DNA of 46,340 bases from Acidobacteriota bacterium (lineage in GTDB: Bacteria > Acidobacteriota > UBA4820 > DSQY01): assembly GCA_021778515.1 (NCBI GenBank), contig JAJYCJ010000016.1, forward strand, positions 1-46,340. Reading direction: 5' to 3'. Under the pieces are notes generated by a model. It was not told the origin of the DNA. It worked only from the letters and a program-made list of their open reading frames with translations, and searched no databases. The translations under genes were made by a program, and so were the position numbers. Position 1 is the stretch's first letter, and every line of letters starts with the position of its first letter. Shown piece after piece: positions 9,817-42,633 of this stretch.

Positions 9817-9847
9817 ACGGGAAAAGACGGGCATGAAGTACCTCTCT

Positions 9848-9962
9848 CCGCCTAACGGGTTAGCTGACGGGCTCAGGCTGAGGCGGCCTTACGCTGGTGC
9901 GATTCGCCCCGATGGATCGGGTCCCCGTCGCCCCGCACGCGCGGGGCCTTCGGCGGGAACCT
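9848..9962 (-). ncRNA. ydaO-yuaA type cyclic-di-AMP riboswitch
   Basis: Read on the minus strand, the leader of the KimA-like pair holds, in order, the blocks typical of the ydaO aptamer: GACGGGGACCC, GGGGCGAATC and GAGCCCGTCAGCTAACC. A closing P1 stem pairs CCGCC near the 5' end with GGCGG at the 3' end. The CCGTCAGCTAACC block is the most diagnostic part of this class. In Bacillus and others ydaO RNAs bind c-di-AMP and shut off potassium-importer genes when ligand is high. The downstream genes here are KimA-like, which is the expected target. Boundaries are approximate. Confidence 0.88.
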
Positions 9963-10038
9963 TTGTACTCCTTCGGGGCAGGGAGGTCAAGGGCCCGGAG
10001 GGCCGGCTGGAACTCGGAGGTCGAATTCGGATAGCAAG

Positions 10039-17905: not shown

Positions 17906-18544
17906 ATGAGAGAAGAACGCGGCTCCGCGCTCATCACCGTGATCCTGGTCGTGTTGGTGCTGACGCTGGTAGGGTTGGCGGCCCTGGTCTACATGGGCAT
18001 GGAGGACCGGATCTCCGCCAACGACCGGCTCAGCAAGGAGGCGCTCTACGCCGCCGAGGTGGGGCTTCGGCAAGGCGAGCGCGCACTCGCCACTCAGTTG
18101 ACCAGCGGGAACACCATAACGATGTTGTTGAACCGCCCCAACGACTCCGTTGCCACGCCCGCCGTTACCCCGGCCGTGCCGCAGGTACCCGCGGCCCAGA
18201 CCATGGCCGCCTACGACCTGGCTCACCTTGGCACCTATCTCTACGATGCTTCGGGCACCACGCCGCTGGCTAATCAGGCCATCAGTTACGACACGCCGTC
18301 GGGGACGACAGTAGACAACAGGGCCTACTATAGCCTCTACCTACGCAACAACCCGGATGACTATACGGGAACGCCGACGCAGGACCAGGACGCGAAGGTC
18401 GTCCTCATCTCCGTGGGATACATCCAGGGAGGCGGCGGTAACATCGTGGCAGTTAAAATCGTGGCGGAGGGTTTCAATCTGGGAAGTCAATTCGCGCTGG
18501 GCGGCCAAGCCGACTGGAACGCGGGAGGAACCAATGCGCAATAA
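17906..18544 (+). CDS. PilX-like minor pilin
   Basis: This 212-residue protein starts two bases after the PilW-like stop. The N-terminus reads REERGSALITVILVVLVLTL, the PilX-type motif in which the leader is very short and the residue after Gly is Ser, and continues with DRLSKEALYAAEVGLRQGE, typical of PilX. The C-terminal half, VVLISVGYIQGGGGNIVAVK, is a predicted beta-rich pilin domain. Its stop overlaps the next gene by 11 bases. Confidence 0.8.
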   Translation: MREERGSALITVILVVLVLTLVGLAALVYMGMEDRISANDRLSKEALYAAEVGLRQGERALATQLTSGNTITMLLNRPNDSVATPAVTPAVPQVPAAQTMAAYDLAHLGTYLYDASGTTPLANQAISYDTPSGTTVDNRAYYSLYLRNNPDDYTGTPTQDQDAKVVLISVGYIQGGGGNIVAVKIVAEGFNLGSQFALGGQADWNAGGTNAQ

Positions 18545-21500
18545 ACCTCTTCTACGATGGGCAATCGAGAAGGCCGATGCGGGGCACGCGGAGGGGACGC
18601 GAAGGTTCGCCCGAGGTCAGGGGGCGCCTCCGAAAGCCGCCACCCAGCCCTATAGGGTCCTTATTCTGGCCACCGTGTTCCTGGCGCTCTTCCCCACCTC
18701 GTTCTGGGCTCAGACCGAGGGGCTGGACCCCCTCCGGCAGATCACCACCCAAATCGCCCGCTCCAACCTTTTGGTCGTCCTCGACGTGAGCGGCTCCATG
18801 GCCTGGAACGTCTACGGTGCAAGCGGGCAAGCGGGCGATTCTTCGAGTATCGGTGGAGTGCCCAGTGCAGCGTGGAGCGCAACAACCCACCAGGGGGATT
18901 GTTGCAGCTGTTGCAGTTGGCCTTGCAGCCCGCGCCAATACACCCAATGGTCCATCACCCTGACGGTTTCCCAGAAGTTGCCGGCGCGTATCAACACCCT
19001 CAAGAACGCCATGGGGAATTCCGTCTCCATCTACAGCGAGTGGAGGCCGCCGGCGAGTTTTCCTCCGGCCGCAAGCGGGGTCTGGAGCGGAGCGACGGTC
19101 ACCTATGCCGAGAGCAACAAGAGCGACGGCGTGACCCACCTCTGGCAATGGACCTATACAGTCACCACAACATGCTCCTCGAGCGCCCCTTCCGGAACAC
19201 CCTTCTCTCTCCCAAGTCCCGCCTCCGGCGCCAACCTCTTCGGCGGAACGGGCGGCTCTCTTCAGCCACCGCAGGATCTCGTGGGGAACTCTGCAGCGTC
19301 GGTCAATTGGGGCCTGGAGATCTTCTCGACCGACTATGCGGACTGCTCGACGGCCACGCTCCTCGTTCCCATCGACACCTCCGATTCAGGCAACGTGTCC
19401 GTCCTCGAAGCCTACCTGAAGCTGGTGGGACAATCAACCACCATCGGCGGGACAATCTTTGAGGGCCTCGATGTGAGCGGAGGGACGCCGACGGACGGCG
19501 CCATGGCCTTCGCCAGTACGGTCCTCAAAGCGGTGCACGACGGAGGCACGGTGACCGATTTTCAAGGCAACGAATTTACCTTTACCGCCGATCCGAAGCT
19601 CCTGTGCGGCCGCCTCTACGGCGCAGTCCTGATGACGGACGGGCTTTCCAACTACTGTAACCCTTACTGCACGACAAACCGGTGGACCCACGAGACGACG
19701 TGTTACAATGGCGGAGACATCAACAATGGCGGCAACTGGGCAGACCCGTGCACGGGCGCCACTCCGGACGGCGGGCCGTCGGGCTACACCTGCCCCGACG
19801 GGTACAGCTATTTCGCCGCGGGTCAGGCAGACAACCTTTGGAATCTTCCGGTCACGGGCGGCAGTGGTGGTGCTCTCCACGCGCACACGTTCGTGATCGG
19901 AGTCAGCAATCAGGTGGGCCCCTGCGAACTGAACACGATCGCCTACTGGGGGCGCAGCGATGCCAACAGCCCGAACGGGGATGCCGGCGTGGGGCTGGAT
20001 TCCGCGGGAGCTCCCACGGATTGTTACCTGCCTGGGGCCTCCGCGAACTGCGTACTCTCTGCCTCCCAGAGCACCAAAGGGTACGACCCGCTCGTTTGTA
20101 CGCCGACGGAACTGCCGCCGGTTCACGGGAGCTATGCCTACTTCGCGACGACGGCCAACGCGATCAAAGAGGCCCTGGGCGCCATCGTGGCCAGCATGGG
20201 AGCCGGCAATTACACGACCGCCGCACCTTCGGTGGCTTCCTCCTCCCCGAGCACCGCGGGTAACGTCGCTTTCATGGCCAGCGTGGAGTTCCCGGGGTGG
20301 AAGGGCCATCTCTACGCCTACGACCTCAGCCGCTGCGACACGTCCAAGTGCACCCTGGCCAATCCCACCTGCAATGCGTGCACCGGGACGACGGCCAATC
20401 CGGTCCCGGCACCACCCCTGAAGTTGTGGGACGCGGGGGCCGTGCTGTCGGCCCAGACGGTGGGCACGGACCAGACCAACGGCCGCTCCATCTGGACCTG
20501 GGACCCCAGTACTTCCCCGCCGACCATGGTGCAGATCGTGGGGGGGACGAAGGCCACGGACTCGACGATCCTCGCGACGGCGAGCAAACTGAACAGCATC
20601 GCCGGCATCAGCACGGTGACTCCGCAGGTGGTGGATTTCATCCGCGGTGACGACGGGAGCATCAGCGCATTGGGACCGGGCACGAGAAGGGCATGGTTGC
20701 TCGGTGGCCTCCTCAATTCCACGCCCGCCGTCATCGCCTCGCCGGGGCTGTGGCTCCAGGGAAAGCTGGCCAACCACGCCGGCTTCCAGACCACCTATGC
20801 AAACCGTCATCCCCTCGTCTGGGTGGGGTCTGACGACGGCATGCTCCACGCCTTCGACATCGTGGACGGCACTGAGGTCATTGCCCTGTTGCCTCCCGAG
20901 CTTATCGCCAATCAGGTCAAGCTCTACAACAATTACATTGCGAACCCTACCGCCAACGCCACGGGCGAACCCGCGGCCATCGGCTCCCATATGTACGGCG
21001 TGGCCAATTCGCCGCGCTTCGCGGACGTGAACGTGGGCACGGTGACAAGCCCCGATTATCGGACCGTCTTGATCCTGTCGGAGGGGCCGGGACACGACTA
21101 TTCCGATGCCAACAACGGCAACGCCATCACCGCCATCGACGTTACCCATCCCTACCCCGGACGAACGATTTCGGGGTATACGGACCCCTTCCCCGCCGAC
21201 CCCAATTACGATGCTACGAAACCCGTCCGGATCCTTTGGCGCTATGCCAGGAAGGGGGCCACAGGCACGCCGCCTTACCTCTCGTGGAGCCTGCCGGCCA
21301 TCGCCGCCAACGCGCAAAGCAATTGGCTATCCCCCATGGGCTCTGGCCAAAACCCAAACAGCACCAAGAGCAGTCAGGCGGCCCCGCAAATGTACTATTT
21401 CAACACCGCCACAGGTTCTGTGACGACAGAGACTCTGAGCAACCAGAGTTCGGGGGCCTTGGTGGGCAATCAGGCCTATGCCCATACGGTCTTCTGGCAA

Positions 21501-22268
21501 AGGGGCGGGCGTTTCGCCGAGGACAACGTGGCCACGGAGGTCCTTCAGGCAGATCTGAACGGGCAGATCTGGTTCAAGCCCTGGAATGGGACGGGTTCCG
21601 CAGGCGCTGCCTCCCCCCTCATCAGCGTCGGTGCAGGCCAGCCCATTTACTATTCACCCGCCGCTACAACCTGGTCGAGTGGAAGTGCGCAGTACTCCAT
21701 CTATGCCTTTGCCTCGGGGAGTTTCTTTGAATCCAGCAGCGCCATCAGCGGCCCGTCCATCGGCACGTCGGGCAATTTCATTCCCAAGGCCTACATTTAT
21801 GCCTGGGCCCTTGATTCCAACCAGAACCCCACAGGGAGCCCGAAGATCGGGACCATCCAGCTTGATCAGATCCCAAACCCAGACGATCCGACCAAGACAC
21901 TTGGGACCCAGACGCAAGTGACCGGCTCGCCCCTGATCTTCCTGCCAGGCCCGGGGGACCTCAGTTCCAAGCCTTTCGCGCTATTCCTCCTGTACGACCC
22001 GCAAGCCAATTACTGTGCCGGCACTTCCTACGTAGCTCAAATCAACTTCGATCCCAGCGCACTCAGCGGGAGCATTCCCACATCCAGCGTCACGGTGACG
22101 AACGTGGGGGCCGGTGCCGCCAGCGGGTTCACGGTGGCTAATAACCAGATCTACGTGGCCCACAGCGGAGTAGGAACAGGAGCGGAGCCCACGCTGGAGA
22201 AGAAAGGCCCCCAGATTAACCGGGGGAATCCCACCGTTGCGCCGGCATGGTGGCAGGAGCTTCAGTAG
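18534..22268 (+). CDS. pilY1: PilY1-like pilus-tip adhesin with von Willebrand A domain
   Basis: This is a 1244-residue secreted protein. A hydrophobic signal core lies at about 41-58, after an unusually long 40-residue N-terminal region. A VWA-like domain follows with the metal-site motif DVSGS at 84-88. The C-terminal half carries the PilY1 beta-propeller signature, VWVGSDDGMLHAFDIVDGTE, and later ATEVLQADLNGQIWFKPW. The middle is rich in Cys, Gly, Ser and Thr. PilY1 sits at the pilus tip and affects retraction, surface sensing and adhesion. The start at 18534 has GGGAGGAACC before it and overlaps the pilX-like gene. It is the last gene of the operon. Confidence 0.85.
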   Translation: MRNKPLLRWAIEKADAGHAEGTRRFARGQGAPPKAATQPYRVLILATVFLALFPTSFWAQTEGLDPLRQITTQIARSNLLVVLDVSGSMAWNVYGASGQAGDSSSIGGVPSAAWSATTHQGDCCSCCSWPCSPRQYTQWSITLTVSQKLPARINTLKNAMGNSVSIYSEWRPPASFPPAASGVWSGATVTYAESNKSDGVTHLWQWTYTVTTTCSSSAPSGTPFSLPSPASGANLFGGTGGSLQPPQDLVGNSAASVNWGLEIFSTDYADCSTATLLVPIDTSDSGNVSVLEAYLKLVGQSTTIGGTIFEGLDVSGGTPTDGAMAFASTVLKAVHDGGTVTDFQGNEFTFTADPKLLCGRLYGAVLMTDGLSNYCNPYCTTNRWTHETTCYNGGDINNGGNWADPCTGATPDGGPSGYTCPDGYSYFAAGQADNLWNLPVTGGSGGALHAHTFVIGVSNQVGPCELNTIAYWGRSDANSPNGDAGVGLDSAGAPTDCYLPGASANCVLSASQSTKGYDPLVCTPTELPPVHGSYAYFATTANAIKEALGAIVASMGAGNYTTAAPSVASSSPSTAGNVAFMASVEFPGWKGHLYAYDLSRCDTSKCTLANPTCNACTGTTANPVPAPPLKLWDAGAVLSAQTVGTDQTNGRSIWTWDPSTSPPTMVQIVGGTKATDSTILATASKLNSIAGISTVTPQVVDFIRGDDGSISALGPGTRRAWLLGGLLNSTPAVIASPGLWLQGKLANHAGFQTTYANRHPLVWVGSDDGMLHAFDIVDGTEVIALLPPELIANQVKLYNNYIANPTANATGEPAAIGSHMYGVANSPRFADVNVGTVTSPDYRTVLILSEGPGHDYSDANNGNAITAIDVTHPYPGRTISGYTDPFPADPNYDATKPVRILWRYARKGATGTPPYLSWSLPAIAANAQSNWLSPMGSGQNPNSTKSSQAAPQMYYFNTATGSVTTETLSNQSSGALVGNQAYAHTVFWQRGGRFAEDNVATEVLQADLNGQIWFKPWNGTGSAGAASPLISVGAGQPIYYSPAATTWSSGSAQYSIYAFASGSFFESSSAISGPSIGTSGNFIPKAYIYAWALDSNQNPTGSPKIGTIQLDQIPNPDDPTKTLGTQTQVTGSPLIFLPGPGDLSSKPFALFLLYDPQANYCAGTSYVAQINFDPSALSGSIPTSSVTVTNVGAGAASGFTVANNQIYVAHSGVGTGAEPTLEKKGPQINRGNPTVAPAWWQELQ

Positions 22269-35109: not shown

Positions 35110-35592
35110 TTACACCTCCAATGCTCGGGTGAAGATGACGCGGTGATCGCCCGGCGCGTAGAAATCCTGTATCTCGGCGGCCACCTGGTATCCGTGGCGA
35201 AGGTAGAACCGCCTCGCCGGTTCGTACTGGGGCAGCGAGGAGGTCTCGATGATGCAGAGCCTGCCGCCGCGACGGCGCATGTCCTCCTCCGCCCGAATCA
35301 GGAGGGCGTGCCCCGCCCCTTTTCCGTGGCAGGCCGGATCGGCGGCGATCCAGTAGAGGTCGAAGGTCCCAAGCGTGCAAGGCGTGGCCCCCCAGCAGGC
35401 GTACCCCGCCACCTTGCCCTCCCACTCGGCCACCAGGAAGGCGTAGTCGGTCTGCCCCGGCTTCGCGAGTGCCACATCGATGAGCTCGAGGGCCACCTCG
35501 ATCTCCTCCGTCCGGAAAACGCCCGCCCGTTCCAGCATCTCCTTCAATTCCGGTCTGTCCTCTCGCCTGAGCTCTCTCATTCGAAGGTCCAT
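35110..35592 (-). CDS. GNAT-family N-acetyltransferase in the kamA operon
   Basis: This is a 160-residue acetyltransferase. The acetyl-CoA loop is DPACHGKGAGHALL, followed by an EDMRRRG helix, and a C-terminal QYEPARRFYLRHGYQVAAEI segment typical of GNATs. The start at 35592 overlaps the upstream ligase gene by 16 bases; ATG 35580 is an alternative. It is the last gene of kamA / ATP-grasp / ATP-grasp / GNAT. By analogy with AblB (beta-lysine acetyltransferase) or streptothricin-type acetyltransferases it may acetylate an amino group of the pathway product; the substrate is inferred from context only. Confidence 0.85.
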   Translation of the reverse strand: MDLRMRELRREDRPELKEMLERAGVFRTEEIEVALELIDVALAKPGQTDYAFLVAEWEGKVAGYACWGATPCTLGTFDLYWIAADPACHGKGAGHALLIRAEEDMRRRGGRLCIIETSSLPQYEPARRFYLRHGYQVAAEIQDFYAPGDHRVIFTRALEV

Positions 35593-36593
35593 GGCTCCCC
35601 CTTCTCGGCAGACCCGAGGATGGTTGAAACGAGGTAGGCGTAGTCCCAGCCCTCGGCTCGGGCCTGCTTGGCCAGCCCCGCGGAGGGGGCGAGGTCGGGA
35701 TTGGGATTCACCTCCAGGACGCACAGCGAACCCTCGCCGTCCTCGCGAAGGTCCACGCGAGCATAACCCCGGCAGCCCAGAGCGCGGTAGGCGAGCTGGG
35801 CGACCTGCTGCGCCCGGTTCGAGAGCGCGGGCTCCACCGGAGCCGGGCAGAGGGTGGGGGTCTGCTGGTAGACGGGGCTCTCGGGCGCCCATTTGGCCTC
35901 GAAGGTCAAGACCGGTGGGTATCCCGGAGGGAGGGCGGAGTAGTCTACCAGGGAGGGCGGCAGCGGGCGGGGGCCCTCCGCCGTCTCCACCACCGAGCAG
36001 TTCAGCTCCCGCCCGGCCAGGAAGCTCTCCACGAGGACGCCCTGTGGGAACCGGCCCAGGAGGTCGTCCAGCCTCTCGATGAGGGAGGCGCGGTCTCGCA
36101 CGACGCTCGATGGCCCGATGCCGTGGCTCGCGTCATTGGCAGCCGGCTTCAGGAAGGCGGGGAAGGGGAAGGGGAGGGACTCCGGCACCTCCTCGATCCG
36201 CCGGACGTGAAGGCCCGCGGCCGTGCGAATCCCTTCGGCCGCGAGCAGGCGCTTGGCCAATGGCTTGTGAAGTCCCATGTGCATGGCCATCGGAGGGCAT
36301 CCGGTGGCCCTCAGGCCGAGGACCTTGAGCATCAAGCCAACCTGAACTTCGCTGGAGGGATCCCCGGGAAAGCCCTCGAAAAGGTTGAAGACCACGGAGC
36401 CCCTGGGCAACCGCTCCAACACCAGCGCCACGGTGGAGAAGGGCGCCGTGAGCGGCAACCGGAGGACGTCCCGGCCCCGGTCGCGCAAGACCCTCTCGAC
36501 TGCCTTGACGGTCTCCATCACCCCCTCCTCGGCCGCGCTTTCGGGCAGGAGAGGATCGCTCGTGTTGTGGATGAGGGTGACCATTCCAGGCAT
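35577..36593 (-). CDS. ATP-grasp ligase, D-Ala-D-Ala-ligase-like (second of two)
   Basis: This is a 338-residue ATP-grasp enzyme. VVFNLFEGFPGDPSSEVQVG and GLHKPLAKRLLAAEGIRTAA match the N-domain of Ddl; FPAFLKPAANDASHGIG carries the ATP-binding lysine, and VLEVNPNPDLAPSAG the metal-binding Glu/Asn pair. The usual Ddl end (EINTLPGFT) is altered to EVNPNPDLAP, so the acceptor site differs. ATG 36593 has GGGAG upstream; GTG 36638 would overlap the previous stop by four bases. With a sister ligase and kamA adjacent, it may join beta-lysine or another amino acid to a peptide. Cell-wall D-Ala-D-Ala synthesis seems unlikely from context. Confidence 0.83.
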   Translation of the reverse strand: MPGMVTLIHNTSDPLLPESAAEEGVMETVKAVERVLRDRGRDVLRLPLTAPFSTVALVLERLPRGSVVFNLFEGFPGDPSSEVQVGLMLKVLGLRATGCPPMAMHMGLHKPLAKRLLAAEGIRTAAGLHVRRIEEVPESLPFPFPAFLKPAANDASHGIGPSSVVRDRASLIERLDDLLGRFPQGVLVESFLAGRELNCSVVETAEGPRPLPPSLVDYSALPPGYPPVLTFEAKWAPESPVYQQTPTLCPAPVEPALSNRAQQVAQLAYRALGCRGYARVDLREDGEGSLCVLEVNPNPDLAPSAGLAKQARAEGWDYAYLVSTILGSAEKGEPWTFE

Positions 36594-36634
36594 GGTGAAG
36601 CTCCCGGAGCTTCCTTTTCGAATGTCGCGCCGCC

Positions 36635-37636
36635 TCACGCCAGCCCGCAGCGGGCGAAGGCGGTCGCTAGTATGCGCGACATCAGGGTCTGGTAGTCAAG
36701 GCCCATGCCGCGCGAGAGGATGGGGAGATCGCCGTAGGCCGGAGAGAGTCCGGGCAGGGGATTGATTTCCAGGAAGACGGGCACGCCTTCGCGGATCCGG
36801 AAGTCCACCCTGGCCACGTCCCGGCAGCCGATCGCCAAGAAGGCCTTGACCGCGTCGGCGTAGAGTCGCGCCAGCAGGTCCGCCGGAAGCGGCGGAGGAA
36901 CGTCGTAGGCGACCTGGTTCTCCCAGTCGCGCTTCACTTCGATGGAATAGACGAAGTCGGGGTCCGTGCCGCTCCTGGGCCGTATCCTCATGGCGCCGAT
37001 GGCCTCGGGCGGTGTGTTCCCGATGATGCCGACGGTGTACTCGTCGCCGGCCACGAAGCCTTCCAACATGACCGGCTGGCCGTAGGAGCGCAACATTTCC
37101 CCGACCGTCTCCTTCAGCTGCCCGGTTCCCTCCAGGCGGGAGCTGCCGCGGATCCCCTTGGAGGAGCCCTCGAAGGCAGGCTTGGCGAAGAGCGGAAAGG
37201 GAGGGTCGCTCCGGAGCAGGCGGGCGAGATCCGATTCGCTCCCCACGACCCAGTCGGGCGCCACCGCCACCCCGGCGGCGGCCACGAGGCGCTTGGTGAG
37301 CGGCTTGTCCAGGCTGATGGCGAGGGTGAGCGGATCGGAGAAGCTGTAGGGGATGCCGAGCATCTCCAGCACCGAAGGCACCTGACCCTCGCGGCTCCTG
37401 AAGGTGCCTCGCCCCTCGGCGATGTTGAAGACGAAGTCCACGGGTTCGTGGAGCACCCGCTCCAGGAACTCCCGCCCGCCGCCCAGGCGCACCACCTCAT
37501 GGCCGCTTTCCGCGATGGCCGCTTCGATGGCCCCTACGGTTGAAGGTGGGTCGTACTCCTCGAAGAGATCATCGGGGAGCCCGGAGGGAACCGGGCTCCC
37601 CGCGGGCTTCATGTCAAACGTCAGGCCGATTCGCAT
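36635..37636 (-). CDS. ATP-grasp ligase, D-Ala-D-Ala-ligase-like (first of two)
   Basis: This is a 333-residue ligase with the Ddl plan: VDFVFNIAEGRGTFRSREGQ, ISLDKPLTKRLVAAAG, FPLFAKPAFEGSSKGI (ATP lysine and glycine loop), MLEGFVAGDEYTVGIIG and the metal site VFLEINPLPGLSPAYG. It is closer to true Ddl than its neighbour but lacks the classical YxxK/H-type acceptor segment; a substrate cannot be assigned. Its ATG overlaps the kamA end by 23 bases and has only a weak ribosome-binding site, implying coupled translation. The two ligases are only distantly alike, so they probably catalyse different steps. Confidence 0.85.
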   Translation of the reverse strand: MRIGLTFDMKPAGSPVPSGLPDDLFEEYDPPSTVGAIEAAIAESGHEVVRLGGGREFLERVLHEPVDFVFNIAEGRGTFRSREGQVPSVLEMLGIPYSFSDPLTLAISLDKPLTKRLVAAAGVAVAPDWVVGSESDLARLLRSDPPFPLFAKPAFEGSSKGIRGSSRLEGTGQLKETVGEMLRSYGQPVMLEGFVAGDEYTVGIIGNTPPEAIGAMRIRPRSGTDPDFVYSIEVKRDWENQVAYDVPPPLPADLLARLYADAVKAFLAIGCRDVARVDFRIREGVPVFLEINPLPGLSPAYGDLPILSRGMGLDYQTLMSRILATAFARCGLA

Positions 37637-38870
37637 CGGAGGTGGACCTGATCTGGGCGAGGTGGGGACGGGTGCCGCGGCTGGAGCGGCCCTGGGCGGG
37701 CTGGACCGCCGGGCGCCTCGGCTTGCTTCGGACCGCAGGAGCGGGATTCCTGTAGGGGAAGATCTTTCCTTCGTAGTTGCGGAGCACGAGGGTGTCCTCG
37801 GTGGCGTACATGATGTAGTTGGAGGTGATGGGGACCTTGCCTCCGCCCTCCGTATCCACCACGAAGGTGGGGATGGCGAGGCCCGACGTCCACCCGCGCA
37901 TTTTCTCTATGATCTCCACGCCCGTCCAGACGGAGGTCCGCAGGTGTTCGGCGCCATGGATCGGGTCGCACTGGAAGAGGTAGTACGGGCGGACTCCCAT
38001 TTTCAGGAGTCCGTGGCAGAGCCGGAGCATGGTCTGGGCGCTGTCGTTCACCCCCCGCATGAGCACCGACTGGTTGTTCACCGGGATGCCGGCGGAGAGG
38101 ACCTTGCGGCAGGCGGCGGCGGCCTCGGGCGTCAGCTCGTTGGGATGGTTGAAGTGGGTGTTCATCCAGACGGGGAGGTGCTTCCCGAGAATCCCGACCA
38201 GCTCATCCGTGATGCGCTGGGGAAGGACCACGGGGAATCGCGTGCCGATCCGGATGATCTCCACGTGCGGAATCTTGCGGAGCTCCGTGAGGCAGTAGTC
38301 GAGCACCGGCAGCGGAAGGGAGAGGGGGTCGCCCCCCGAGAAGATGACGTCGCGGATCTGGGGGGTGCGCCGGATGTAGTCGATCATGGCATCGAGCTGC
38401 TGGCGGTTCTTCGGCAGCTCGCCGTCCTCCCACTCCCGGCGACGGGTGCAGTGGCGGCAGTACATGGGGCACATGTTGGTGGCGATGAAGAGGCACCGGT
38501 CGGGATACCTGTGCACCAGCCCCTCCACCGGCATGTCGGCATCCTCGCCCAGGGGGTCGTCGATGCCCACGCTCCGGTAGGTGTATTCCAGGATCGAAGG
38601 GACGGCCTGCTTGCGAACGGGGTCCTCGGGATCGCTCGGATCGATGAGGCTCAGGTAGTAAGGAGGGATGCCCACGTGCAGGCTGGGCGAGAGGAGCTTG
38701 AGCTGCTGGTACTCGCTCTTGGAGTAGGGAAGGAGGCGGTGGAGTGTCTCGAGGTCCTTGATGCGGTTTCGGTACTGCCACCGCCAATCGTTCCACTGCT
38801 CATCGGTGGCCTCGGGGAAATAGGACGACCTTCCTGAAAGGGGTGATGATGGTGCTGGACTATCCAGCAT
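37614..38870 (-). CDS. kamA: Lysine 2,3-aminomutase (radical SAM, PLP)
   Basis: This is a 418-residue enzyme converting L-lysine to L-beta-lysine. The cluster motif CPMYCRHC has Cys134, Cys138 and Cys141. The PLP lysine is Lys345 in EGGGK. Asp302 (FQCDPIHG) and Asp339 (FVVDTEGG) correspond to the two aspartates that hold the substrate side-chain amine in lysine aminomutases, which argues against glutamate 2,3-aminomutase. It is longer than EpmB (about 340) and has a Pro/Arg-rich tail. The start at 38870 follows GGGAGGCCGCC; ATG 38975 is possible. It heads an overlapping four-gene operon. Confidence 0.92.
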   Translation of the reverse strand: MLDSPAPSSPLSGRSSYFPEATDEQWNDWRWQYRNRIKDLETLHRLLPYSKSEYQQLKLLSPSLHVGIPPYYLSLIDPSDPEDPVRKQAVPSILEYTYRSVGIDDPLGEDADMPVEGLVHRYPDRCLFIATNMCPMYCRHCTRRREWEDGELPKNRQQLDAMIDYIRRTPQIRDVIFSGGDPLSLPLPVLDYCLTELRKIPHVEIIRIGTRFPVVLPQRITDELVGILGKHLPVWMNTHFNHPNELTPEAAAACRKVLSAGIPVNNQSVLMRGVNDSAQTMLRLCHGLLKMGVRPYYLFQCDPIHGAEHLRTSVWTGVEIIEKMRGWTSGLAIPTFVVDTEGGGKVPITSNYIMYATEDTLVLRNYEGKIFPYRNPAPAVRSKPRRPAVQPAQGRSSRGTRPHLAQIRSTSDANRPDV

Positions 38871-39120
38871 GGCGGCCTCCCTGCGGCCCCAGCTCCATGC
38901 TGGGCGCCTCGCCGACTTGGTCTCCAGAAACGACAATGCCTCGCTGGAAATGAGCGAGGCCAAAGGATCCGACATATTGTAATGCCCTCTTCTTCTTGAG
39001 GGCGGCGGGACTTGGTGGCTGTTCTTGCTCCATCCTGTTCGCCGGGAACCGATCCCGGCCCCTCCTGCTCCTATGGTTCCAAAGCACCGCGGACCGCCCG
39101 CCTGCTTTGAACTTGTGGCA

Positions 39121-39148
39121 AATATAGACCTTTTGAAGCCGAAGTCAA
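39121..39148 (-). promoter_or_regulatory. Sigma-70 promoter of the kamA operon
   Basis: On the minus strand TTGACT (-35), 16 bases, TATATT (-10). It lies about 250 bases before the chosen start (146 before the alternative ATG at 38975), giving a long leader. This is the best promoter match in the region. Confidence 0.7.
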
Positions 39149-39234: not shown

Positions 39235-39437
39235 CGTTTACCTCGAATTCGGTGATTGAAATGCTCGGCCTTCGATGGTGGGGAGGGTTCACGGCGGAAC
39301 GGAAGCGTCTCCCAGGCGGGGAGGGCCAAGGGCTTCTCTCTCCCCAAATTCCGCGATTGAAATACAGGTGGCTTCGGCCAAGGTTCAGGTTCACGGGGGT
39401 ACGACTTTGTCTCTTGGACGGGGAGGGCCATGGGCTT
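39235..39437. repeat. Two-copy imperfect direct repeat, period about 101 bp
   Basis: GATTGAAAT at 39254 and 39355, GGTTCACGG blocks, and CGGGGAGGGCCA followed by GGGCTTC recur with a spacing of 101-102 bases. A further fragment, CAATCGCGGGATTTGGG at 39651-39667, is an inverted match to 39342-39358 (CCCAAATTCCGCGATTG). Confidence 0.7.
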
Positions 39438-39486
39438 CCTCCTCCGATTCGCAGGCAAAGCCTGACGAATCGTCGCGTTGCCCTCC

Positions 39487-39529
39487 GGGGCCCCACCCCA
39501 TGGGCAAAGCCCGCTGGGGCCCCACCCCA
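39487..39529. repeat. Direct repeat GGGGCCCCACCCCA, two copies
   Basis: The 14-mer occurs at 39487-39500 and 39516-39529, exactly 29 bases apart, with ATGGGCAAAGCCC between. Confidence 0.8.
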
Positions 39530-39786
39530 CCCTTGGGGCTTCCTCCCCCGGATCAAGTCCGGGGTCGGAGGCTACCCAAATCCCTCATGGGTGAAGACTG
39601 GCTTTCGCAAAAGCGACTTCCCATCGGCCTTTCGGAGTTACGACCATGTCCAATCGCGGGATTTGGGGTTTACCATGGTCTCTTCCCGGGACACGACACT
39701 TCCCAAGAGGCTCCGCCCCCAGGGCGCCCGCCTCCGGCGGGCCGTCACCCCCAAAAGGCGGGGAGGCTTCCTCCCCGCACCCCTCC

Positions 39787-39861: not shown

Positions 39862-41460
39862 ATGGTCGCGAGAGGCGGGGCGGCGGGCACGGCTGGAGCT
39901 GATGGACTGGCGCGTCGGATGGCCTCGCGCTGCCTTTGCTACCTGCCGGTGATTCTGGCCGCCCTGTCGGTGGCCATGGTTCTCGCCTCACCCCTCAGGG
40001 GGCTCGAACTGGGAGACGAGGGCGTCGTGGCGCTCGGCGGCTGGCGGATTCTGACCGGGCAGGTGCCCTACCGGGACTTCTTCGAAATCGTTCTGCCCCT
40101 CCCGCTCCTGTCGTTGGCCGGCGCCTACCGTCTGCTCGGGGTGACGGTGGCGGCCGGGCGCGCGGTGGCGGTACTGTATTCGGCCGCTCTGGCGGCCCTG
40201 CTCCTCGTTTACTCCCGGCGCCTGCTCACCCGCCCACTCTTTCAGGCAGCCGCCGTTGCCCCCCTGGTATCCTGCGGCGTCGCGGCCTGGCTGTTACCCA
40301 GTCACCACTGGCTGGCGGACGTCTTTGCCTTGGGGGCCCTCTTGGCCTTCGATCTTGCGGCGGATCGCGGGCGGGTGGCATGGGCCGCAACGGGCGGAGC
40401 TTTGGGGGCTCTGTGCGCCATGACCCTTCAGGATCAGGGAGGCCTCTTGCTCGTGGGCCTGGCGCTCTGGTGCCTCCTGGCCGCGCCCAGGGAATCCCGC
40501 GCCCGTCTGACGGCGGCCGCGGCCGCCGGCGCCGGGGCCGTCTTCGTGGCGCTCGCTTGGTGGCTCCTGCCCCTCGTGTCCGCCGCTACGCTCCTTTACG
40601 ACTGGGCCCTCTTCCCACTGTCCCGCTACCAACGTTTCGCCAACAACGTAGCCGGTTTCGCGCGGACGGCGAGGGAGACGGCCGCCCTTTGGAGGACGGG
40701 GATCTTCTGGCGGGAGCCCGTGGCCTTTGGCCTGTGGAATGCCAAGGTGCTCCTCGTGGCCGCGGAGGTGGTGGCGGCGTGGATCGTCTTTGCCGTGGGC
40801 CTGGTGCGCCGGCGCGATCTCGGCTGGCGCTTCTATCTCATGGCCTCCGGCGCGTGCGCCTTCCTCCTTCCCACCTTCAGGTGCCTGGCCCTGGTGAACC
40901 TCGAATGGGCCCTCCCGATGGCCGGGCTGGCGGCCGCGTGGGGCCTGGAACGGTGGGCCGGCCGCGGGGATGGTCAGCGCCGCGCGGCCGGGTGGATGGC
41001 CGCAGCCGTGATCCTCGTCTTCGCGGGGGCGGGCCTGGCCCGCCTGCCGGGACTCCTGAGCGAACGGGGACCCATGGTGATGACGCCGGCGGGTGCGGTG
41101 GGGCCTCTCCCGCGCTCGGAGGCCACTGATCTGCAAGGGATCGTGGACGCCGTGGCGATCCGGCTGCGCCCGGGGGAGCCCCTCTTCTCGACGGGTTTCA
41201 TGGGCATGCTGAACGTCCTCACGGGGCACCCTTCGCCCGCCCCGTTCGACGTCTTCCTTCCCCCCGACTACACGACGCCGTCCCAGGTCTCAGAGGCGAT
41301 CTCCGCATTGGATCGGAACCGGGCCGAGTGGATCGCCCAGCCCGCCGGCTTCGGCGGGGGGGAGGCGTGGCGGAGTTACCTGACGCGGTGCTTCGAGCCG
41401 ATCTACCAAAACGCTCGGTACGAGTTGTGGAAGCGAAAGGAGGGTCGGCCGATGGGGTGA
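39862..41460 (+). CDS. GT-C-like multi-pass membrane protein (putative glycosyltransferase)
   Basis: This is a 532-residue protein with about ten membrane helices. The first periplasmic loop has the Asp-Glu pair typical of GT-C enzymes (GLELGDEGVVALGGW, Asp52/Glu53), followed by ILTGQVPYRDFFEIVLPLPL, a pattern common in bacterial ArnT/PMT-like proteins. The C-terminal 130 residues are soluble and would lie outside the inner membrane. Such enzymes move a sugar from a lipid-phosphate donor. Acceptor and donor are unknown. GGGAGGCGGC precedes the start. Its end is seven bases from the convergent EamA gene. Confidence 0.7.
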   Translation: MVARGGAAGTAGADGLARRMASRCLCYLPVILAALSVAMVLASPLRGLELGDEGVVALGGWRILTGQVPYRDFFEIVLPLPLLSLAGAYRLLGVTVAAGRAVAVLYSAALAALLLVYSRRLLTRPLFQAAAVAPLVSCGVAAWLLPSHHWLADVFALGALLAFDLAADRGRVAWAATGGALGALCAMTLQDQGGLLLVGLALWCLLAAPRESRARLTAAAAAGAGAVFVALAWWLLPLVSAATLLYDWALFPLSRYQRFANNVAGFARTARETAALWRTGIFWREPVAFGLWNAKVLLVAAEVVAAWIVFAVGLVRRRDLGWRFYLMASGACAFLLPTFRCLALVNLEWALPMAGLAAAWGLERWAGRGDGQRRAAGWMAAAVILVFAGAGLARLPGLLSERGPMVMTPAGAVGPLPRSEATDLQGIVDAVAIRLRPGEPLFSTGFMGMLNVLTGHPSPAPFDVFLPPDYTTPSQVSEAISALDRNRAEWIAQPAGFGGGEAWRSYLTRCFEPIYQNARYELWKRKEGRPMG

Positions 41461-41467
41461 CGGGCCA

Positions 41468-42373
41468 TCAGTTTTCCAGCAGGAGAAGCGCCACCCCCAT
41501 GAAGGCCACCAGGGTTCCCAGAAACGCGCGCCTGGAAATGCGCTCCTTGAAGAAGATCCATACCAGGGGGAGGAGGAGGACGGGTACGGGGGCCATGAGC
41601 GCCGATGCCACTCCCACCTTGGCGTGGCTCACGGCGTACAGGGAGAGCCAGACTCCCACGAAGGGCCCCGTGGCGGCGCCGCAGGCCGTATAGAGCAGGG
41701 CCCGGCGGTCCCTCAGCTTGTCGAAGCTCTCTCGCACGCCGCCGAGGGCCACGGTCACGATGAGGATGCCGAGGGTCGCCACGACCATGCGGATGAGAGT
41801 CCCCGAGAGAGAGCTCACGCCCTCCCTCAGGCCCTCCTTGGCCGCCACCAATCCCGCGGCTTGGCAGAGCGCCCCGCCGAGTGCGAAGGCCGTGCCTCGG
41901 CCGAGCCTCCCGTTTCTGACCGGGCCGGTCGTGGGGCTCCTTTCCAGCACCACCCAGGAGATGCCGGCCAGGGTCACGAGGATGCCCAGGAACTCCAGCC
42001 AGGTGAGGGCCTCTCCCAGGAAGGCGATGCCCATGAGCGCCGAGAAGATGGGCCAGGAGGACATGATGAGCGTGGCCTTTCGCGGGCCAAGCTCGATGTA
42101 GGATTGGAAGAGGAAGCTGTCCCCCAGGGTCAGACCGATGAGCCCCGAGAGGCCCAGCCACAGCCAGCTCTCCAGAGGAGCGGAGAGGGGGAGGAGCGTT
42201 CCGTAGAAGAGAAGGTGCGTCGCCCCCAGCAGGAGCACCGCGAAGACCAGCCGGGTCCTGTTCACCGCCAATACCCCCACCCGGGTGCTGGCCAGCGTGA
42301 AGTAGAGGGCGGTGAAGGCCCACAGCACGGCCGTGAGCAGAGCGGCCAGTTCGCCGAGCCTGGATGCGATCAC
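41468..42373 (-). CDS. EamA/DMT-family transporter
   Basis: This 301-residue protein has ten predicted helices in two five-helix EamA repeats (about 5-130 and 160-300). Helix-pair signatures ALMGIAFLGEALTWLEFLG and LPLVWIFFKERISRRAFLG, each with the conserved Glu before the last helix, are clear. The family exports metabolites such as amino acids; substrate unknown. The start is GTG 42373, with GGAGG nine bases upstream, not the earlier ATG at 42412, which lacks a site. Confidence 0.87.
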   Translation of the reverse strand: MIASRLGELAALLTAVLWAFTALYFTLASTRVGVLAVNRTRLVFAVLLLGATHLLFYGTLLPLSAPLESWLWLGLSGLIGLTLGDSFLFQSYIELGPRKATLIMSSWPIFSALMGIAFLGEALTWLEFLGILVTLAGISWVVLERSPTTGPVRNGRLGRGTAFALGGALCQAAGLVAAKEGLREGVSSLSGTLIRMVVATLGILIVTVALGGVRESFDKLRDRRALLYTACGAATGPFVGVWLSLYAVSHAKVGVASALMAPVPVLLLPLVWIFFKERISRRAFLGTLVAFMGVALLLLEN

Positions 42374-42633
42374 GAGAGGGCCTCCTCCGCCCCTGCACAG
42401 GCCGGGCGGCACCCCAACTTACTCCAGCGCCAGCCCCAGCGGCAAGGGAATTCGGGAATTCGGAGCCGACCTGCCGGGAAAGAGAATGAGCACCGAGCCA
42501 CCGGGGCAACAAGGCCGGCAGGAGGGGGATGGTGAAGCCCAAACATCAGCAGGGCCCGATGGCTGGTCGCGGCTTCTTCTCCACCCTCAACCGAACACGA
42601 CGTACACTGTCGATCCGAGGAGAGGAGGCCGTC

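Follow-up and report, generated by a model that had tools for sequence, protein, structure and literature searches.

Four overlapping genes in the window, the 46,340-nucleotide acidobacterial stretch analyzed here, encode a KamA protein, two ATP-grasp ligases (AG1 and AG2) and a GNAT acetyltransferase. We consider it likely that this module is a dedicated small-molecule pathway in which beta-lysine is made, ligated twice and acetylated, all of this chemistry being inferred. Computation established which genes make up the set, that they are conserved and inherited together, that the catalytic residues are intact, that substrate residues of D-Ala-D-Ala ligase (Ddl) are lost and that a deacetylase is exclusively linked to the module. 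The substrates of the ligases cannot be read from sequence, and the module has no known product, activity or mutant.

Organization and distribution of the module

The four ORFs are uninterrupted on the minus strand, and adjoining ORFs overlap by 23, 4 and 16 bp (Table 1), in agreement with a preliminary description that had left the middle overlap at about 0 to 4 bases. The start of KamA is the ATG at 38870, which is kept in relatives (ML[DE][ST]PAP); the frame is also open further upstream, and KamA residues are numbered here on the 454-aa translation of 37614-38978. AG2 starts with the GTG at 36638, with an alternative ATG at 36593 (338 aa). The family assignments of the four proteins were concordant between Pfam and NCBIfam. 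An upstream promoter had also been predicted, and a sigma-70-like candidate (TTGACT-16 bp-TATATT) was found that matches the consensus at 10 of 12 positions, a consensus match being its only support. Two promoter-type sites were observed, compared with 0.5 expected in shuffled sequences.

Table 1. Positions of the module and of other features in the window
Feature	Position	Strand	Description
KamA	37614..38870	-	Lysine 2,3-aminomutase-type radical SAM/PLP enzyme, 418 aa; PF12544 + PF04055
AG1	36635..37636	-	Ddl-fold ATP-grasp ligase, clade 1, 333 aa; PF07478
AG2	35577..36638	-	Ddl-fold ATP-grasp ligase, clade 2, 353 aa from GTG; PF07478
GNAT acetyltransferase	35110..35592	-	160 aa; PF00583/PF13508
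Sigma-70-like promoter candidate	39121..39148	-	Upstream of KamA; consensus match only
EamA/DMT permease	41468..42412	-	Candidate transporter; PF00892
Diverged direct repeats	39241-39550		Between KamA and the 532-aa ORF
532-aa ORF	39862-41460	+	No Pfam match; apparent membrane protein
c-di-AMP riboswitch	9837-9965	-	RF00379, 69.8 bits
Amino-acid-permease-like genes	9769-7796, 7773-5806		Adjoined by the c-di-AMP riboswitch, which lies upstream
1303-aa ORF	18357-22268	+	No Pfam match

Named public genomes were scanned with an AG1 alignment, and the 80 best AG1 loci were kept. At 50 of them, in several phyla, the order KamA-AG1-AG2-GNAT was found on one strand. These 50 loci were mainly from Dehalococcoidia and other Chloroflexota, and others were from delta-proteobacterial lineages, Acidobacteria, Dadabacteria and Riflebacteria. 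In planctomycetes, most loci had KamA-AG1-AG2, and the loci of Omnitrophota and Schekmanbacteria had KamA-AG1. Among 40 Acidobacteriota loci, 15 had KamA-AG1-AG2-GNAT and 16 had AG1-AG2-GNAT-KamA. Such rearrangement with all four genes retained speaks more strongly for a joint function than a fixed order alone would. The search for the four-gene order that the preliminary description had proposed thus showed that it recurs, in the same or a rotated form, across many phyla. A chance origin of the gene set is excluded because the set is conserved across phyla, and the module is both conserved and mobile. The window belongs to an acidobacterial MAG, and among named genomes its AG1 has its closest match, at 96% identity, in Acidobacteria bacterium DBS2-1.bin89. 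The module genes were present in all seven genomes of the window's family that are at least 86% complete; the two without them are 64-67% complete. A KamA-AG1 gene fusion in locus L128 was rejected as a frameshift artefact.

The co-occurrence of KamA and AG1 was examined in a sample of 396 Acidobacteriota genomes, with AG1 called at 250 bits or more and LAM-type KamA at an E value of 1e-80 or lower. AG1 was found in 64 genomes, LAM-type KamA in 78 and both in 61. LAM-type KamA was therefore present in 61/64 genomes with AG1 and in 17/332 without it (Fisher p 5e-52; the Fisher tests in this work were not corrected for shared ancestry). KamA lay within 6 kb of AG1 in 54 of the 61 genomes and elsewhere in the assembly in the other 7, so that the tie between KamA and the ligases holds even when the genes are unlinked. 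Three AG1 genomes gave no intact LAM-type KamA match, one of them owing to a frameshifted copy.

KamA and its separate history

KamA was aligned to the lysine 2,3-aminomutase of C. subterminale (PDB 2A5H; E 3e-135), which confirmed the complete active site that had been reported for KamA. The cysteines C170/C174/C177 and K381, the lysine for PLP, are present, and D338 and D375 stand where 2A5H has D293 and D330, the two Asp residues that bind the epsilon-amine of the substrate. The Cys triad, the PLP lysine and both Asp residues were invariant in 79/79 module KamA proteins, the window's included. TIGR03820 was the top-scoring equivalog for KamA, above the glutamate, arginine and EpmB equivalogs, with a score (483 bits) that does not meet its cut-off (525.4 bits). 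KamA also fell below the cut-off for EpmB of EF-P lysylation (TIGR03821, 237 bits against 369). No lysine fermentation cluster (KamDE, lysine 5,6-aminomutase and downstream genes) was found at the window locus. We infer that KamA yields beta-lysine here.

The contexts of LAM-type KamA proteins without the ligases were read from sequence, with AblB called by profile; these proteins occurred with lysine 5,6-aminomutase-type fermentation clusters, with AblB or in other contexts. At three loci from the window's taxonomic order (L183-L185, from G009, G012 and G011), a ligase-free KamA stands beside a ferritin-like protein and a 2-oxoacid oxidoreductase-like cluster, a context that remains unexplained.

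In the KamA tree, the module proteins did not form a single clade, and characterized LAM and fermentation KamA proteins nested among them. KamA of the window's family grouped with proteins of order mates that lack the ligases (support 100/98). AG1 and AG2 of this family grouped with the Dehalococcoidia locus L030 (99/92 and 99/94), and L030's own KamA grouped with Chloroflexota. We rejected the entry of KamA and the ligases into the window's lineage as one unit, since KamA groups with order mates and not with L030. On the evidence of these trees, the ligases and KamA have separate histories in the window's lineage, with a local LAM occupying the KamA slot, which favors beta-lysine itself as the common requirement.

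Two ligase clades outside Ddl

The AlphaFold models of AG1 and AG2 had a pLDDT of 95 each, and their nearest folds were Ddl (Foldseek, E 1e-24 or better). The residues of both ligases were mapped onto E. coli DdlB numbering, and the residues for ATP, Mg and the oxyanion, with the equivalents of K97, K144, E180, E187, K215, R255, D257, E270 and N272 among them, were 95-100% conserved in both. AG1 and AG2 thus meet the criterion for the ATP-grasp superfamily, namely, the fold together with conserved ATP/Mg residues. They share with the Ddl/VanA family the fold, the ATP/Mg site and the equivalents of K215, R255, D257, E270 and N272.

The two ligases could be ordinary D-Ala-D-Ala ligase paralogues serving cell-wall or D-amino-acid metabolism beside a catabolic KamA. 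Their fold and their best profile matches, which are to Ddl profiles, would agree with this, as would the label of the GNAT's relative PDB 2R7H ("Putative D-alanine N-acetyltransferase"; E 9e-34). However, they depart from Ddl/VanA on several counts. Ddl enzymes carry the PF01820 and PF07478 pair, and no PF01820 N-terminal domain was matched in AG1 or AG2 by Pfam, only PF07478. In DdlB, E15, S150 and Y216 form a triad, and S281-L282 hold the acceptor carboxylate. The Y216 equivalent is Arg in 45/49 AG1 proteins and Trp in 44/44 AG2 proteins, and the S281-L282 equivalent is G/S-D in AG1, with Asp in 49/49, and mostly A-G in AG2; the window's AG1 has R236 and D303 in place of Y216 and L282, and its AG2 has Trp for Y216 and A-G for S281-L282. 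In the ligase tree that the preliminary description had called for, AG1, AG2 and 27 Ddl proteins (DdlB of E. coli and 26 proteins from relatives of the window) formed three separate clades with 100% bootstrap each, which places both ligases outside Ddl. An ordinary Ddl with both Pfam domains is encoded elsewhere in the window's genome. The strong co-occurrence with KamA and the absence of lysine-fermentation genes at the locus also speak against paralogues beside a catabolic enzyme, and we regard that explanation as very improbable. The sequence and tree evidence thus did not refute the earlier interpretation on this point: despite their best profile matches, AG1 and AG2 are almost certainly not D-Ala-D-Ala ligases.

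Judging from their residues, AG1 and AG2 are inferred to be two working ligases, presumably with substrates other than those of Ddl. AG1 probably uses beta-lysine, because KamA-AG1 is the minimal conserved pair. As a guess based on the alignment, the Asp at the acceptor-carboxylate position of AG1 would suit an amine-bearing partner. In an Anaeromyxobacter MAG, AG1-like ATP-grasp domains occur twice in tandem within one protein of 769 aa (L106:4453-6760).

A distinct third ATP-grasp protein recurs at seven module loci. In Omnitrophota and Margulisiibacteriota (L091:7032-8021, L093, L095, L097 and L099), it follows KamA-AG1 in place of AG2 and GNAT, and L045 and L079 have it in addition to both. 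In L093, it is followed by an apparent S66 carboxypeptidase and an MFS transporter. The third ATP-grasp protein of Omnitrophota had no PDB relative by phmmer. Since AG2 and GNAT are missing in Omnitrophota, where KamA-AG1 is accompanied by a different ATP-grasp, the product is not uniform.

Acetylation, neighboring genes and the predicted product

In locus L102, AG2 and GNAT are fused into one gene, from which we infer that the two act together. Another gene associated with the module encodes a GNAT-deacetylase, whose Zn-site motifs are present and whose catalytic domain has acetylpolyamine amidohydrolase PDB 6PHR (HDAC family) as its nearest solved relative (E 5e-72). In contrast to that enzyme, the module-linked deacetylase is fused to a GNAT domain and tied to the KamA-ligase module. 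At 13 loci, from two phyla, its gene is located beside or within the module. The full-length protein was found in 12/396 Acidobacteriota genomes, and all 12 carry the module, several of them at an unlinked site (Fisher p 1e-10); it is absent from the window's own genome. The restriction of the GNAT-deacetylase to genomes with the module is the strongest hint of an acetylated amine on the product.

The pathway may run as follows. KamA would convert L-lysine to beta-lysine. AG1 and then AG2 would each activate a carboxylate as an acyl phosphate and form an amide bond, so that beta-lysine is coupled to at least one other amino acid or amine. The free amine acetylated by GNAT would most likely be that of the beta-lysine side chain. 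The GNAT-deacetylase may remove this acetyl group again in some lineages, where transport of the compound may fall to a MarC, EamA or MFS protein. Under our best reading, the product is an acetylated beta-lysine amide or small peptide, a structure that is inferred only. The beta-lysine conjugate put forward in the preliminary description is supported overall, and its further points, namely, a peptide product, acetylation as the last step and a function other than that of an osmolyte, have not been demonstrated.

The AblA/AblB pathway to N-epsilon-acetyl-beta-lysine (TIGR03820/TIGR03827) occurs in methanogens, Bacillus and others. Like the module, it has a lysine 2,3-aminomutase and a GNAT in one operon; the module differs from it by two added ATP-grasp ligases, a GNAT that had no match to the AblB profile TIGR03827 and a KamA below the TIGR03820 cut-off. 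An osmolyte-like role as a stress solute, with the deacetylase and transporters disposing of the product on downshift, is possible, and we hold it only tentatively. KamA plus an acetyltransferase follows the same scheme as the known AblA/AblB osmolyte, some families retain the module in most of their members, as that of the window does, and the NAGGN peptide osmolyte is also made with ATP-grasp and GNAT activities. Against this, several host isolates have freshwater names (Lake Baikal, fen, groundwater), and AblB is rare, being found in 3/396 Acidobacteriota genomes and coexisting with the module in one. Moreover, no osmotic, Na+, c-di-AMP or lysine riboswitch was found at the module in the window or 38 other loci, and salt control of the module is not indicated. 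The earlier claim that the product is not the simple osmolyte therefore stands in part: the AblA/AblB product is disfavored, as a profile search found no AblB in the window's genome, and an osmolyte-like role is not excluded. The NAGGN cassette (TIGR03103 GNAT/ATP-grasp fusion) resembles the module in its acetyltransferase and ATP-grasp, as in the AG2-GNAT fusion mentioned above. Unlike in that cassette, the ligases of the module are Ddl-type, and KamA stands in place of the asparagine-synthase-like enzyme. Among the NCBIfam matches listed for the four proteins, none was to TIGR03103, an asparagine-synthase-like protein or an M42 peptidase.

The module is not marked by any known RNA element; a TPP riboswitch about 1.4 kb upstream of KamA in two loci is probably unrelated to it. 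Elsewhere in the window, a c-di-AMP riboswitch adjoins two amino-acid-permease-like genes, which are plausibly KimA-type potassium importers. The window also holds a 1303-aa ORF without a Pfam match.

Several kinds of genes recur around the module. A MarC-family gene lies 20-45 bp after GNAT in 12 loci, and a divergent winged-helix regulator was found at 17 module loci. MFS (8 loci), EamA (5) and HTH-cupin (5) genes also recur. In the genus mate and in G003 and G004, the EamA gene is the same-strand neighbor upstream of KamA, at a distance of 281-579 bp. In the window, a 532-aa ORF for an apparent membrane protein is located between KamA and the EamA gene. This ORF looks like a recent insertion because the genus mate (L021) has none there. 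Diverged direct repeats lie between it and KamA. An anti-phage system was ruled out for want of a PADLOC match.

The membrane proteins MarC, MFS and EamA, together with MarR-like or HTH-cupin regulators, raise a further explanation, in which the product would be an exported bioactive or signaling beta-lysine peptide, kept inert by acetylation and reactivated after export, by analogy with streptothricin-type self-protection. In streptothricin resistance, beta-lysine moieties are acetylated. We find this explanation unlikely, since no NRPS or PKS was present among the scanned neighbors in the window, the transporters vary between lineages, and retention across families is steady, unlike that of sporadic antibiotic clusters. 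This steady retention and the lack of NRPS/PKS among the neighbors scanned favor a physiological metabolite over an antibiotic. Because the module is consistently kept within some families, its product is most likely an intracellular stress or polyamine-like metabolite.

No description of KamA with an ATP-grasp, a Ddl-like ligase or a GNAT, or of PDB 2R7H, was found in open-access full text; subscription papers were outside the scope of the search. The product family appears to be undescribed. The module represents a new form of beta-lysine metabolism, and its ligases make up two new subfamilies. The AG1 and AG2 clades are ancient. About 1 in 6 of the Acidobacteriota genomes sampled have them, as do many uncultured Chloroflexota; the latter include Dehalococcoidia, a group in which the cultivated members reportedly have no peptidoglycan. 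The module offers a way to correct annotations, a four-enzyme system to express and a definite mass to seek. As the metabolite is retained over several phyla, it likely matters to the cell. We give roughly even weight to the fuller proposal that a mobile module makes undescribed acetylated beta-lysine amides or short peptides in many phyla and that their amine is reversibly acetylated in some lineages. If this is true, reversible acetylation by a protein resembling acetylpolyamine amidohydrolase would switch the charge of the molecule and perhaps its activity.
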